Shown here one piece after another: positions 14,752 through 29,490 of a stretch of DNA of 32,348 nucleotides. Numbering within the stretch: position 1 is the first letter of the stretch; each line of letters starts with the position of its first letter. Origin of the DNA: Alphaproteobacteria bacterium (GTDB lineage: Bacteria; Pseudomonadota; Alphaproteobacteria; ATCC43930; CGMCC-115725); NCBI GenBank assembly GCA_030041385.1, contig JASHNY010000180.1, forward strand, positions 1 to 32,348, read 5' to 3'. A program made the translations under genes and the position numbers. The notes beneath the pieces were generated by a model. The model searched no databases and was not told the origin of the DNA. It saw nothing but the letters and a program-made list of their open reading frames with translations.

Positions 14752-15522
14752 TCAGTGCAGTCGCGACCACACCCGGCGCTTGGCCGCGTAGAGGACGCCG
14801 ACCGCAACGACGAGGAATAATATCACCCTGAAGCCGATGCGGTGCCGCTCGTCGAGATTCGGCTCCGATGCCCACGACAGGAACGTGGCGACATCGTGCG
14901 CCATCTGCGGGATCGTCGCCTTGGTACCGTCGGTGTACTTGACCTGCCCGTCGGCGGTCAGCGGCGGCGGCATCTTGATCTGATGGCCGGGGAAGGTGGC
15001 GTTGTAATAGGTGCCCGGTGTCTCCTTGAACCCGGCCGGCGCTTTGACGAAGCCGGTCAGGATACCGTAGACGTAATCGGGGCCGCCCTCGCGCGCCTTG
15101 ACCACCATCGACAAATCCGGCGGCAAGGCGCCGTTTTCCGCCGCGCGCGCCGCCTCGTCGTTGGGAAACGGCCCGACGAACATGTCGGACGGCTGCGCCG
15201 GGCGCTGGAACATCTGGCCCTGGTCGTTGGGGCCGGCGGTCACCTGGTATTGCGCAGCGATGCCCTTGACCTGGGCGGGCGTATAGCCGATCGCCTCAAG
15301 ATCGCGGTAGGCCAGGTGCTTCAGCGGATGACAGGCCGAGCAGACATCGTGATAGACCTGGAAGCCGCGCTGCAACGCGGCCTCGTCGTAGGTTCCGAAG
15401 ACGCCCTGGAACGACCATTCCTGATGCGCCGGAGCCGACGCCCCGTCCTCGGCACGGGCGAGGCCGACCGCGGCGCAGGCAAGGGCCGACGCGGCGACCG
15501 CAGCAATCAGCAGCCTGGCCAT
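14752..15522 (-). CDS. petC: Cytochrome c1 of the bc1 complex
   Basis: A 256-residue exported haem protein, the electron-accepting arm of ubiquinol-cytochrome c reductase. An N-terminal Sec signal (residues 1-24, ending ALACAAVGLARA) precedes the mature protein. The haem c motif CSACH is at 61-65 and the axial methionine is probably Met184 in HQIKMPPPL. A C-terminal membrane anchor (about 228-247) ends in basic residues. It starts one base after the petB stop, so translation is coupled. It is followed at 19 bases by mtnP. The partner Rieske gene is not intact nearby (see 16781). Confidence 0.97.
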   Translation of the reverse strand: MARLLIAAVAASALACAAVGLARAEDGASAPAHQEWSFQGVFGTYDEAALQRGFQVYHDVCSACHPLKHLAYRDLEAIGYTPAQVKGIAAQYQVTAGPNDQGQMFQRPAQPSDMFVGPFPNDEAARAAENGALPPDLSMVVKAREGGPDYVYGILTGFVKAPAGFKETPGTYYNATFPGHQIKMPPPLTADGQVKYTDGTKATIPQMAHDVATFLSWASEPNLDERHRIGFRVILFLVVAVGVLYAAKRRVWSRLH

Positions 15523-15523
15523 G

Positions 15524-16771
15524 TCAACCCCTCTCCGCCACGGGCACGCTACCGCCGCCGAGCACCGCGGCGCCGATGCTGAGCGGCAGCGGGCGCGGCC
15601 GCTCCAGCTTGCCGATCAGCGGAAACAGGACGAGGAAGTGCAGGAAATAATAGAAGGTGGCGATGCGCCCGACCGTCACCACGATCCCTTCGGGCGGATG
15701 GGCGCCGACCCAGCCGAGCGCCAGCACGTCGATGACCAGCAGCCAGAAGATCTTTTTGTAGACCGGCCGGAACTTGGCGCTGCGCACCGGCGAGGTGTCG
15801 AGCCAAGGGAGGATGAACAGCACCCCGATCGCCGAGAACAGCAGGATGACGCCGAACAGCTTGTTCGGCACCGAGCGCAGGATCGCGTAGAACGGCAGGA
15901 AATACCATTCAGGCACGATGTCGGGCGGGGTCTGCAGCGGGTTCGCCGGGATGTAGTTCTGCGGGTCGCCGAGGAAGTTCGGCGCGTAGAACACGATGAC
16001 CGCGTAGATCAGCAGAAACACGGCCAGGCCGAAACTGTCCTTGACCGTGTAATAGGGATGGAACGGAATCGTGTCTCCCGGCCCCTTATGGTCGATGCCG
16101 AGCGGGTTGTTGGAACCGTGGGTGTGCAGCGCGATCAGGTGCAAGCCGACCACCGCAACGATCACGAACGGCAGCAGATAATGCAGCGAGAAGAACCGGT
16201 TGAGGGTCGGGTTGCCGACCACGTAGCCACCCCACAAGAGGGTGACGATATCGTGGCCGACGCCCGGTATCGCCGAGAACAGGTTGGTGATGACGGTCGC
16301 CCCCCAATAGCTCATCTGCCCCCATGGCAGCACGTAGCCCATGAACGCCGTCGCCATCATCAGCAGCAGGATGACGACACCGAGCATCCACAGCAATTCG
16401 CGCGGGTACTTGTACGAACCGTAATACAGTCCGCGGAAGATATGGATGTAGACGACGATGAAGAACATCGACGCCCCGTTCATGTGGATGTAGCGCAACA
16501 GCCAGCCGTAATTGACATCGCGCATGATGCGCTCGACCGAATCGAACGCGAGGTCGGCGTTGGGCGTGTAGTACATCGCCAGAAAGATGCCGGTGACAAT
16601 CATGATCACCAGCATCGCGCCGGCGAGCGAGCCGAAATTCCACCAGTAGCTCAGGTTGCGCGGTGTCGGGTATTCGTAAAGCTCATGATGCATGACCTTT
16701 ACGAATGGCAGGCGGTAGTCAATCCAGCGGGTAATCCGGCCGTTCGCAGCGCCGGGTCCGGGTGGGGCCAT
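15524..16771 (-). CDS. petB: Cytochrome b of the bc1 complex
   Basis: A 415-residue integral membrane protein carrying both b haems and the quinol sites. The haem ligands are visible as His96 (RYIHMNGAS), His110 (YIHIFRG), His197 (SLHYLLPF) and His211 ([11 protein letters not shown]). The Qo-site PEWY is present in [12 protein letters not shown]. The length is usual for an alphaproteobacterial full-length cytochrome b. A good AGGAGGG precedes the ATG and overlaps the stop codon of the decayed petA frame. Normally petA lies directly upstream in a petABC operon; here only a relic is present, so petB must be transcribed from within the 287-base gap to trmL. Confidence 0.98.
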
Positions 16772-16780
16772 GGCGCCCTC

Positions 16781-16987
16781 CTAATCGATCTTGATGGCGG
16801 TGGCGGTCGCAAATGTGCCCGGTGGGGCGGCGAGGTTCAACAGCCTCGGCTCGCCCCGCCGCGCGCCGGCGCGGCAGTTCGACGTAACGTGCGATTGCGC
16901 CACACCCGCCATCCATATCCTCGTCAGCACGTAGCCGGCCGCCTCGCGGCGGCCCGGCGGGCAAGCTATACCGTTGAAGTGACCGAA
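16781..16987 (-). pseudogene. petA: Relic of petA (Rieske iron-sulfur protein), C-terminal end only
   Basis: The minus-strand frame ending at the TAG at 16783-16781, nine bases before petB, ends in LNLAAPPGTFATATAIKID. This closely resembles the invariable C-terminus of Rieske subunits (R-x-G-P-AP-NL-VPP-F-DT-I-IG). Without gaps, the residues before it (GARRGEPRL) also fit the family's GRIRKGPAP. Further upstream the likeness fades: where CPCHGS should be, the frame reads AQSHVT, so the second cluster-binding box is destroyed. A stop lies at 16990-16988. No N-terminal anchor, CTHLGC box or start codon exists in the rest of the gap. Position and order are exactly those of petA in petABC. The call rests on about 30 residues and is inference. 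Confidence 0.55.
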
Positions 16988-17012
16988 CTATGCGACAGAC
17001 TGCCGCATAAAT

Positions 17013-17036
17013 CGCGCCCGCCGGCGAGCGGGCGCG
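17013..17036. other. Perfect GC-rich hairpin upstream of trmL
   Basis: CGCGCCCGC (17013-17021) and GCGGGCGCG (17028-17036) form a perfect nine-base stem with a six-base loop, 22 bases before the trmL start. No T-run follows on either strand, so it is not a standard terminator. It may lie in the trmL leader or be leftover from the deletion that removed petA. Confidence 0.4.
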
Positions 17037-17058
17037 CCGGCTTCTGAGGCGAGCGCCG

Positions 17059-17547
17059 ATGCCCACGGTCGCGACGGCGGCTCCTGCGCTGCGGCTGGCG
17101 CTGTTCGAACCGGACATTCCGCAGAATACCGGAACCTTGCTGCGCCTGGCCGCCTGTTTCGGTGTCGCGGTCGACCTGATCGAGCCGCTCGGCTTTCTCA
17201 TGGACGACCGCCGGCTCAGGCGGGCGGCGCTCGATTATGCCGCACTTGCCGCGATCCGCCGGCACCAATCCTGGGCCGCGTTCGTGGCCGGGCGCGACCG
17301 CGAGTCGCGGCTCATTCTGCTGACCACGGCGGGCGACGTGCCGCTTTACCGCTTCGCTTTTGCCGCGCGCGACACGCTGCTCCTGGGGCGGGAGAGCGCC
17401 GGGGTTCCGGGTTTCGTGCATGATGCCGCAGCCGCGCGGGTCGCGATTCCCTTGCGGCCCGGCGCCCGATCGCTCAACGTCGCCGTCGCCGGGGCGATCG
17501 CGCTCAGCGAAGCGCTGCGCCAGACCGGCCATTTCGCCGCCGGGTGA
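17059..17547 (+). CDS. trmL: tRNA (cytidine(34)-2'-O)-methyltransferase TrmL
   Basis: A 162-residue SPOUT (knotted) methyltransferase that methylates the ribose of the wobble base in tRNA-Leu isoacceptors. Family motifs are [20 protein letters not shown] at the start, [10 protein letters not shown] in the middle and the knot-forming [20 protein letters not shown] at the C-terminus. The length is normal for this minimal SPOUT enzyme. GAGGCGAG precedes the ATG. It is divergent from the bc1 genes and seven bases upstream of hemF, with which it is probably co-transcribed. One of its likely substrates, a tRNA-Leu, is encoded at 26792. Confidence 0.94.
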
Positions 17548-28442: not shown

Positions 28443-28539
28443 GCTTGGCTCCTTGGCCGCGTCATTGCCGGGCGGTGCAGGGGCGATATTGCCCTAGCGC
28501 GGCGGTTTTGATAATGCGCGGATGCGGATGGGGGCAACC

Positions 28540-29490
28540 ATGCAACGTAACCGGGTCGCGGTACTCGGCGGATCGGGATTTATCGGGCGCTATATCGTCA
28601 AGCGCCTGGCGGCGCGCGGCGATGCCGTTGCGGTCGGCTGCCGCAACGCCGAGCGCGCCCGCTTTCTGCGGCCGATGGGCGACCCGGGCCAGGTGGCGCT
28701 GGTCAATGTTGCGATCGACGAAGAGAGCGTCTTGCCGGCCTTTCTCGAAGGCAACGACGCGGTCGTCAACGCCGTCGGCATCCTGCACGAAAGCGGCCGG
28801 CAGCGGTTCGACCTGGTGCACCACACGGCACCGGCGCGCCTCGCGCGGCTGGCGCGCGAGGCTGGGGTCGGACGCATGGTGCACATCTCGGCGCTCGGGG
28901 CCGACCCGCGCTCGACCTCGGCCTATTCGCGCAGCAAGGCGGCCGGCGAGCAGGCGGTGCTCGACGCCTTCCCGACCGCGACGATCCTGCGCCCGTCGAT
29001 CGTCTTCGGGCCGGAGGACCAGTTCTTCAACCGGTTCGCGGCGATGGCGACGATATCGCCGGCCCTGCCGCTGATCGGCGACGGCGAAACCCGGTTCCAG
29101 CCGGTCTATGTCGGCGACGTCGCCGAGGCCGTCGAGCGCTGCCTCGACGACCCGGCCACGGCGGCGCGGACCTACGAATTGGGCGGGCCGCGCATCTACA
29201 CCTTCCGCGCGCTGATGGAATTGCTGCTCGCCGAAATCCGCCGCAAGCGCCTGCTGGTCAACGTGCCGTTCCCGGTCGCGGCGATCCAGGCGCGCCTGCT
29301 GTCGCTGCTGCCGAACCCGCCCTTGACCCCGGACCAGGTCGAGATGCTGAAAAGCGACAATATCGTCGCCACCGGGGCGATGGGGCTCTCCGCGCTCGGC
29401 ATCGTGCCGGAGGCGGTCGAGGCGATCCTGCCCACCTATCTCGACCGCTTCCGCCGCGGCGGCTGGTACGAGCGCCAGCGCGCGGTGTAG
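28540..29490 (+). CDS. NDUFA9-family NAD(P)-binding protein (atypical SDR)
   Basis: A 316-residue atypical short-chain dehydrogenase related to the complex I accessory subunit NDUFA9, found in most alphaproteobacteria. The N-terminal nucleotide-binding loop VLGGSGFIGRYIVKRLAARG (about residues 6-25) is intact. VHISALGADPRSTSAYSRSKAAGE provides the Tyr/Lys region, and ILRPSIVFGPEDQFFNRFA follows. It may help complex I stability or lipid/quinone metabolism; this is known only by analogy. The ATG at 28540 follows GGGG at 28530-28534; an alternative start at 28522 adds six residues. Confidence 0.88.
   Translation: MQRNRVAVLGGSGFIGRYIVKRLAARGDAVAVGCRNAERARFLRPMGDPGQVALVNVAIDEESVLPAFLEGNDAVVNAVGILHESGRQRFDLVHHTAPARLARLAREAGVGRMVHISALGADPRSTSAYSRSKAAGEQAVLDAFPTATILRPSIVFGPEDQFFNRFAAMATISPALPLIGDGETRFQPVYVGDVAEAVERCLDDPATAARTYELGGPRIYTFRALMELLLAEIRRKRLLVNVPFPVAAIQARLLSLLPNPPLTPDQVEMLKSDNIVATGAMGLSALGIVPEAVEAILPTYLDRFRRGGWYERQRAV

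Follow-up and report, generated by a model that had tools for sequence, protein, structure and literature searches.

Internal loss of the Rieske gene petA before an intact petBC pair, and an unlinked long-form Rieske gene that probably serves the same bc1 complex in an alphaproteobacterium

Introduction

Coevolution and operon structure are normally expected to bind a catalytic subunit of a central respiratory complex to its partners. What, then, is to be made of a genome in which petB and petC are intact and no Rieske gene (petA) stands before them? This question is raised by a stretch of 32,348 nucleotides from an alphaproteobacterial genome, hereafter the window, which corresponds to contig C244 of an assembly of 4.39 Mb in 264 contigs (completeness 98.46%, contamination 2.57%). 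A preliminary description of this DNA had proposed that petA was deleted from its place and that a functional copy should exist elsewhere, with an assembly deletion as the main alternative. Here we combine analysis of the locus, the rest of the genome (G000), and its relatives, for which genus, family, and class are given as kinship labels (g1, g6, g11, etc.).

Results

An intact bc1 core and an ISP1 remnant

Both petB and petC are intact, as had been described. The petB gene (15524..16771, minus strand) encodes a cytochrome b with matches to Pfam PF00033 and PF00032 that keeps the cytochrome b histidine motifs and PEWY, and petC (14752..15522, minus strand) encodes a cytochrome c1 matching PF02167 that keeps CSACH and IKMPPP; we take the histidine motifs, CSACH, and IKMPPP to hold the haem ligands. 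Cytochrome b and cytochrome c1 each have a single match in the whole genome, namely these two genes, and the closest petB in a wider scan, among the best 80 of 594 matches, is 75% identical and belongs to an alphaproteobacterial MAG. The divergent neighbour at the petA position is a trmL-like SpoU methylase gene (17059..17547, plus strand; PF00588), whose product scores 126.7 bits with the TrmL model TIGR00185, under the cut-off of 190.6; of 11 loci tested in relatives, 10 have this divergent neighbour too, the exception being G017. The gap between this gene and petB (16772-17058) measures 287 bp. The earlier statement that it cannot hold a Rieske gene stands, as none is present there, and by reading we found no Rieske cluster-binding boxes in any of its minus-strand frames.

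The gap does contain what is left of a petA of the short type, ISP1. The peptide LNLAAPPGTFATATAIKID, followed by a stop, is encoded at 16840-16781 on the minus strand and ends nine bases 5' of the petB ATG, its 19 codons occupying 16784..16840. We scored it with a matrix built from 18 ISP1 C-termini of relatives (from an initial 19, that of G033, which carries an insertion, was dropped). At 31.2 bits it is the sole one of 64,576 stretches in the six frames of the window to reach this score, the next best having -5.4 bits, and dinucleotide shuffling of the gap (2000 rounds) never reached it either, confirming the proposed better-than-chance match to Rieske C-termini. Intact ISP1 C-termini score 45.1-65.0 bits when each is left out of the matrix in turn, and the remnant falls below all 18; the tail is therefore homologous but decayed.

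The beginning of the gene survives as well. In the frame of the tail and 24 codons 5' of it sits ATGGCGGGTGTGGCGCAATCGCACGTTACG, which an alignment of the gap with trmL-petA-petB junctions of same-genus genomes, a check that the preliminary description had proposed, places on the petA start; the same alignment located a conserved region upstream. The first 30 bases of petA from G005 and G004 have their best match in the window at 16912 on the minus strand (22/30 and 23/30, respectively), compared with 19/30 for the next best match on either strand of the whole window. Because these starts match best at 16912, the string AQSHVT corresponds to residues 5-10 at the N-terminus of the former PetA (MTDLAQSQVR in G005, MADLAHSQVT in G004), and is not the replaced CPCHGS box for which it had been taken. 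The TAG stop at 16988-16990, previously described as following this string, is located 5' of the petA start and so outside the gene.

The N-terminal part (16853..16912, minus strand; start codon and ~20 codons, with an approximate inner limit) and the C-terminal part share one open frame, MAGVAQSHVTSNCRAGARRGEPRLLNLAAPPGTFATATAIKID, which has 43 codons and is closed by a stop (16781..16912, minus strand). Intact petA has 184, 184, and 185 codons in the same-genus genomes G004, G005, and G002, respectively, which gives a net in-frame internal loss of ~141 of 184 codons (~423 bp). The gene was thus lost by one or more internal deletions that were net in frame. The deletion proposed earlier was correct in that the 3' end remains together with the ribosome-binding site of petB, but what was lost lies within the gene, and both of its ends are still present: the upstream region, the start, ~20 N-terminal codons, 19 C-terminal codons, and the stop, which is overlapped by the petB Shine-Dalgarno sequence (TAGGAGGGCGCCATGG). 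With homology at the petA position beside petB and trmL, and with its cluster-binding boxes lost, this sequence is a decayed ISP1 petA.

Two conserved elements lie upstream of the remnant. One, GGTATAGCTTGCC (16960..16972, minus strand), is a possible -10 region, with TATAGCTTGC common to all six aligned sequences. The other, TGCGGCAGTCTGTCGCA (16991..17007, minus strand), is an imperfect palindrome, differing from its own reverse complement by three mismatches, that is conserved 5' of petA/petB and may be a regulator site; presumably it resembles a site of a redox regulator (RegA/RegR). When up to three mismatches were allowed, no second place for it was found in the window. Among 217 loci, 23 carry the form TGYGGCAGTCTGTCRCA; they come from 12 genomes belonging to genera g1 and g11 and are, as judged by coordinates, trmL or hemF - petA/petB junctions; a variant of the palindrome was seen in genus g6. 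Neither a sigma-70 promoter consensus nor a terminator was found in the gap (16772-17058).

An unlinked bc1-type Rieske gene

The genome has 17 Rieske-domain matches, and only one of these, at 4740-5288 of contig C84, passes the bc1-type model TIGR01416, with 226.4 bits against a cut-off of 97.4. Three other TIGR01416 matches in the genome (E up to 10) reach at most 13.2 bits, and the search with this profile yielded no other ISP1. A genome search for a Rieske protein with a TAT/anchor segment and both boxes, as suggested in the preliminary description, therefore does find its object: the C84 protein consists of a TAT/anchor domain (PF10399, 52.8 bits) followed by a Rieske domain (PF00355, 25.4 bits), both over cut-off, and has both cluster-binding boxes, CTHLGC and CPCHGSKY, the Tyr of the latter being the residue that we take to be Tyr165. 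Its best solved relative, at 205 bits, is 8smr, a ubiquinol-cytochrome c reductase iron-sulfur subunit. The genome thus encodes a single bc1 core and a single intact Rieske gene of the bc1 type, and it retains a petA remnant. The prediction of a Rieske copy elsewhere was right as far as the presence of an intact bc1-type gene is concerned, but this gene is not a moved petA; judged by its sequence, its product is of the bc1 type and of the long form, ISP2, not the in-operon ISP1.

Contig C84 very probably belongs to the genome of the window. Its GC content is 0.686, compared to 0.687 for the window, and its tetranucleotide correlation with the window (r = 0.992) compares with 0.983-0.992 for pieces of the window and 0.914-0.981 for eight loci of other genomes, although the highest of the latter, 0.981 for same-genus G001, is only slightly separated from C84. 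The single coq7 match of the genome lies on C84, and its four best outside matches come from the same genus (G006, G004, G005, and G001), with three of the seven same-genus genomes (G002, G007, and G003) ranking lower. Given this composition and the sole coq7 match with its same-genus relatives, contamination is an unlikely source of C84. In a quick tree the C84 ISP2 pairs with that of same-genus G007 (SH-aLRT 86); a more careful tree does not resolve the placement of either. The gene appears to be under constraint, with dN/dS of ~0.28 against G007 and ~0.30 against G001 (dN 0.20-0.23; dS 0.73-0.75, which is near saturation and makes these values rough). It adjoins a fumarylacetoacetase-like gene.

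Besides ISP2, the genome has 16 further Rieske-domain matches, most of them in frames of 290-750 codons, which we presume to be similar to ring-hydroxylating oxygenases; an aromatic-degrading lifestyle of the organism is possible.

Two Rieske forms in the family

Rieske proteins of the family fall into two forms, a short ISP1 ending in ...IKIG and a long ISP2 ending like ...IGENP...EQI, and this split is fully supported in our tree. Counted from three residues before RRDF, ISP2 has 202 residues compared with 170 in the ISP1 of the family (179 in G033 and 171-172 in G010 and G019). An extra block in the head (the QQPEYAQNWH region) aligns without gaps between ISP2 and 8smr, and the ISP1 sequences listed in an alignment have a gap there. 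Both forms have their counterparts in the ISP1 and ISP2 of Degli Esposti et al. 2014 (PMC4013037).

A quick, midpoint-rooted tree included 16 of 29 other-class and same-class loci together with G200 (G261, in which no motif was found, was left out). Here the C84 protein and the other ISP2 were found across the split from ISP1 (SH-aLRT 100), on a side that also holds 14 proteins from another class. A common origin of ISP2 with the Rieske proteins of another class of the phylum is only suggested by this result, because the tree is quick and midpoint-rooted. The best outside matches to the C84 protein among 249 phylum genomes drawn were G200 from the same class (67%) and then G065 from another class (56%). 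Both an ISP2 that was transferred in and an old duplicate are compatible with the Rieske trees, from both of which the ISP2 of G035, which carries a TGA, was left out.

Distribution and repeated loss of petA

Considering the petB loci of this genome and 29 relatives, petA lies directly upstream at 27 of 30, as ISP1 in 19 cases and as ISP2 in eight. The three loci without it are those of this genome, of G001 from the same genus, and of G017 from genus g11; in the latter two, no petA was found in the 1500 bp before petB. With three added loci (G014, G023, and G027), an ISP2-type petA directly precedes petB in 11 family genomes (G013, G014, G015, G021, G022, G023, G024, G026, G027, G028, and G031), whose petB is 74-79% identical to that of the window. 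All 11 have a single TIGR01416 match at E <= 1e-30, five of them being only 61-82% complete; at E <= 0.001 a second match, under cut-off, is seen in G015, G021, and G024. A free ISP2 was found in this genome (G000) and in G001, G007, G011, G017, G025, G035, G061, and G062, and it coexists with an intact ISP1 in G007, G011, G025, G035, and G061 (the box of the G035 ISP2 containing the TGA). Across the family, 34 of 39 genomes have a TIGR01416 match (E <= 1e-30) and 33 of 39 a petB match (E <= 1e-60), and those lacking one or the other are 74-87% complete. In a wider alphaproteobacterial set, drawn from the best 80 of 594 matches, petA precedes petB at 75 of the 76 loci with enough upstream sequence (that of L135 was found by reading). 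The exception, L125, is from a Rhodospirillales MAG from lichen, in which petB has no petA in the 1600 bp upstream.

In G001 (L085, on G001:C339), a 14-codon open frame, MACDPVFAYSLENG followed by a stop, lies directly before petB at the petA place, and from its sequence is an apparent remnant of the petA start and stop. The remnants thus differ, with 43 codons in G000 and 14 in G001. By reading, no petA remnant was recognised in G017, and no trmL was found beside its petB. In a petB tree of 36 rows, in which three rows are partial (G008, G019, and G023) and the bootstrap is not settled, G001 groups with G004 (98/79), which has petA, and the petB of G000 (15524-16771) groups with that of G017 (L019; 97/85), against the genus labels, neither of these two having petA. 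Since G001 groups with a petA-bearing genome and G000 with G017, at least two losses of petA are needed. The grouping of G000 and G017 may reflect transfer, convergence, or artefact.

A head swap at the hinge in genus g6

The petA place of genus g6 is occupied by ISP1 in G012 (L213) and G030 (L032), and by a protein with an ISP2 head in G021 (L212) and G026 (L022). Upstream and anchor DNA is very similar between the two kinds, the first 108 bases of the anchor agreeing at 89-98 positions, and just past the hinge the ungapped agreement is 5-8 of 30, partly through a 3-base gap. A gapped alignment puts the switch after GATACGCTGGC, at the hinge (DTLA). At the protein level, the anchors of G021 and G026 have 86% and 92% identity with that of G012, and no more than 56% and 61% with the anchors of free ISP2. 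The identity of their heads with ISP1 does not exceed 50% and 52%, whereas with free ISP2 it reaches 68%. On these sequence comparisons we interpret G021 and G026 as natural in-frame domain swaps between ISP1 and ISP2 at the hinge. They are the two clear swaps among the 11 in-operon ISP2 proteins, and the other nine lean weakly the same way. The swap therefore lends support to the view that an ISP2 head can serve the cytochrome b/c1 of the family; because these heads sit on an ISP1-like anchor, the fit of a free ISP2 may not be equally good in every genome.

Discussion

Taken as a whole, the evidence makes it very likely that the ISP1 petA was lost internally and that the bc1 complex is kept working by the unlinked ISP2 encoded on C84. 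In the most likely order of events, as we infer it, ISP2 would first have been present beside ISP1, a state still seen in G007, G011, G025, and G061, and redundancy of the two would then have been followed by loss of ISP1. The in-operon petA would have been destroyed by the internal loss of ~423 bp, net in frame, leaving petBC intact behind it, and the C84 ISP2 would now enter the same cytochrome b/c1 core, an assembly that we infer for this organism. The role of ISP2-type proteins as the in-operon subunit in 11 relatives counts in favour of ISP2 in bc1. Partners for electron flow and export are also encoded, in the form of five COX1-family genes and TatC.

We looked for co-adaptation of cytochrome b to ISP2 in the petB columns, with the partial G008, G019, and G023 dropped, and found nothing clear. 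Ten columns recur in two or more of the three genomes without petA and are rare among ISP1 genomes; three of them are close together (trimmed positions 158, 168, and 169). Another ten differ between in-operon ISP2 and ISP1 genomes. As these columns were compared informally and are confounded by descent, we claim nothing from them.

An assembly artefact, in which an intact petA was collapsed or mis-joined, would fit the fragmented state of the assembly and had been put forward as the main alternative. We reject it as extremely improbable, because the remnant scores below the C-termini of all 18 intact homologues (31.2 bits versus 45.1-65.0) and G001 and G017 also have no petA at the same place; in addition, the remnant frame is open and no other ISP1 was found in the genome. 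Another reading is that the complex is dead or only structural, with petBC persisting without a working Rieske partner and ISP2 serving otherwise. It has a precedent in Acidocella and in Acidiphilium, for which it has been proposed; in Acidiphilium, according to the accessible text of Degli Esposti et al. 2023 (PMC10715153), the bc1 genes are kept and the ISP gene is missing. It also accords with the unlinked position of ISP2 and with the absence of any copy of the palindrome, at up to 3 mismatches, on C84. According to the same text, however, cytochrome b of Acidiphilium and Acidocella has also lost haem ligands (PMC10715153), whereas the motifs of petB and petC are kept here and an ISP is present. 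The C84 ISP2 moreover retains both boxes and the Tyr (CPCHGSKY) and is under constraint, and proteins of its type are the in-operon subunit of 11 relatives. The option of a dead bc1, raised in the preliminary description, is thus unlikely, though somewhat less remote than an artefact of assembly.

A further proposal, compatible with takeover by the C84 ISP2, is that the 43-codon remnant persists because it is translated, as a leader from which ribosomes are coupled onto petB. In its favour, the loss preserved the frame and left the remnant open, and G001 likewise has a start and stop at the petA position, its 14-codon frame lying before petB; the petB of G001 groups with that of G004, not with that of G000. 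However, two in-frame cases would be expected by chance about 1 in 9 times without selection by our estimate, reading of the G017 locus revealed no in-frame remnant, the sequence of the 43-codon remnant is decayed, and petB has its own strong ribosome-binding site. We regard such a leader as doubtful. Equally doubtful is a broader combined proposition, in which the Rieske head would be a replaceable module of one cytochrome b/c1 core (with ISP1 loss and ISP2 takeover in G000, G001, and G017, and the hinge swap of G021 and G026 versus G012 and G030) and the remnants of G000 and G001 would also persist by helping petB translation.

Takeover by the C84 ISP2 has counterparts in other bacteria. Rubrivivax gelatinosus is said, in work by Ouchane et al. 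from 2005, to have two Rieske genes, one of them unlinked, with either serving the same bc1; its Rieske proteins are close duplicates, whereas ISP1 and ISP2 here are deeply split. In Methylocystis and a few other Rhizobiales, ISP2 occurs in isolated clusters without common flanking genes, as stated in the available part of Degli Esposti et al. 2014 (PMC4013037). The present case resembles these in having a second, longer Rieske gene outside petABC, but there, in the same portion of that paper, ISP1 is still in the operon, and here it is gone. The closest similarity is to Acetobacter, Lichenicola, and Lichenicoccus, for which the accessible text of Degli Esposti et al. 2023 (PMC10715153) describes petBC without petA and a long ISP located apart. 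In that text the authors trace the long ISP of the acetous Acetobacteraceae to beta/gamma-proteobacteria and describe its Tyr165 as generally replaced by Phe; the C84 ISP2, in contrast, keeps the Tyr (CPCHGSKYD). A readable ISP1 remnant in place also sets our locus apart from the split petA/petBC of that group as described there. Because a split of long-form petA and petBC is already published in this source (PMC10715153, as far as its accessible text goes), Rieske swaps of this general kind are known, and the present case adds to them an unusually legible petA fossil. Among the entries listed from the literature on Rieske genes and petABC, as represented by titles and the openings of abstracts and with subscription papers largely outside, we found no description of a petA remnant before petBC or of a hinge-level swap between ISP1 and ISP2.

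Within one genus we see the ancestral operon, a genome that carries both genes, and a loss whose fossil is still in place. Together with the head swap in a second genus, these states form a natural test set for asking which parts of the Rieske protein the cytochrome b/c1 core recognises. The case also carries a warning for annotation, since a petBC pair that lacks petA is not necessarily the sign of a dead bc1 complex.

Additional observations on free ISP2 genes

The free ISP2 genes do not share the surroundings of the C84 gene: none of six tested C84 genes was found near the free ISP2 of six relatives (3.5-11 kb; G061 and G062 left out). By reading, the free ISP2 of G025 and G035 have a common enolase-like neighbour, and that of G007 lies right beside an epimerase-like gene (L062). 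The latter is similar to a gene in the window, identified by domain search as NAD-dependent epimerase-like (28522-29490, plus strand), which presumably resembles NDUFA9-type proteins.

The ISP2 gene of G035 (L078, on G035:C174, minus strand) has a TGA in place of the first Cys codon of the CPCHGS box (F*PCHGS), where G025 and G061 have TGC/TGT. The TGA, seen in this one genome, could reflect a new pseudogene or an error in a base; a selenocysteine acting as cluster ligand would be a long shot. Two selB-like pieces lie at contig ends in G035, both under cut-off, and no Rieske protein with a selenocysteine cluster ligand was among the literature matches listed. The rest of the G035 gene is conserved, with dN of 0.10-0.12 and dS of 0.9-1.6.
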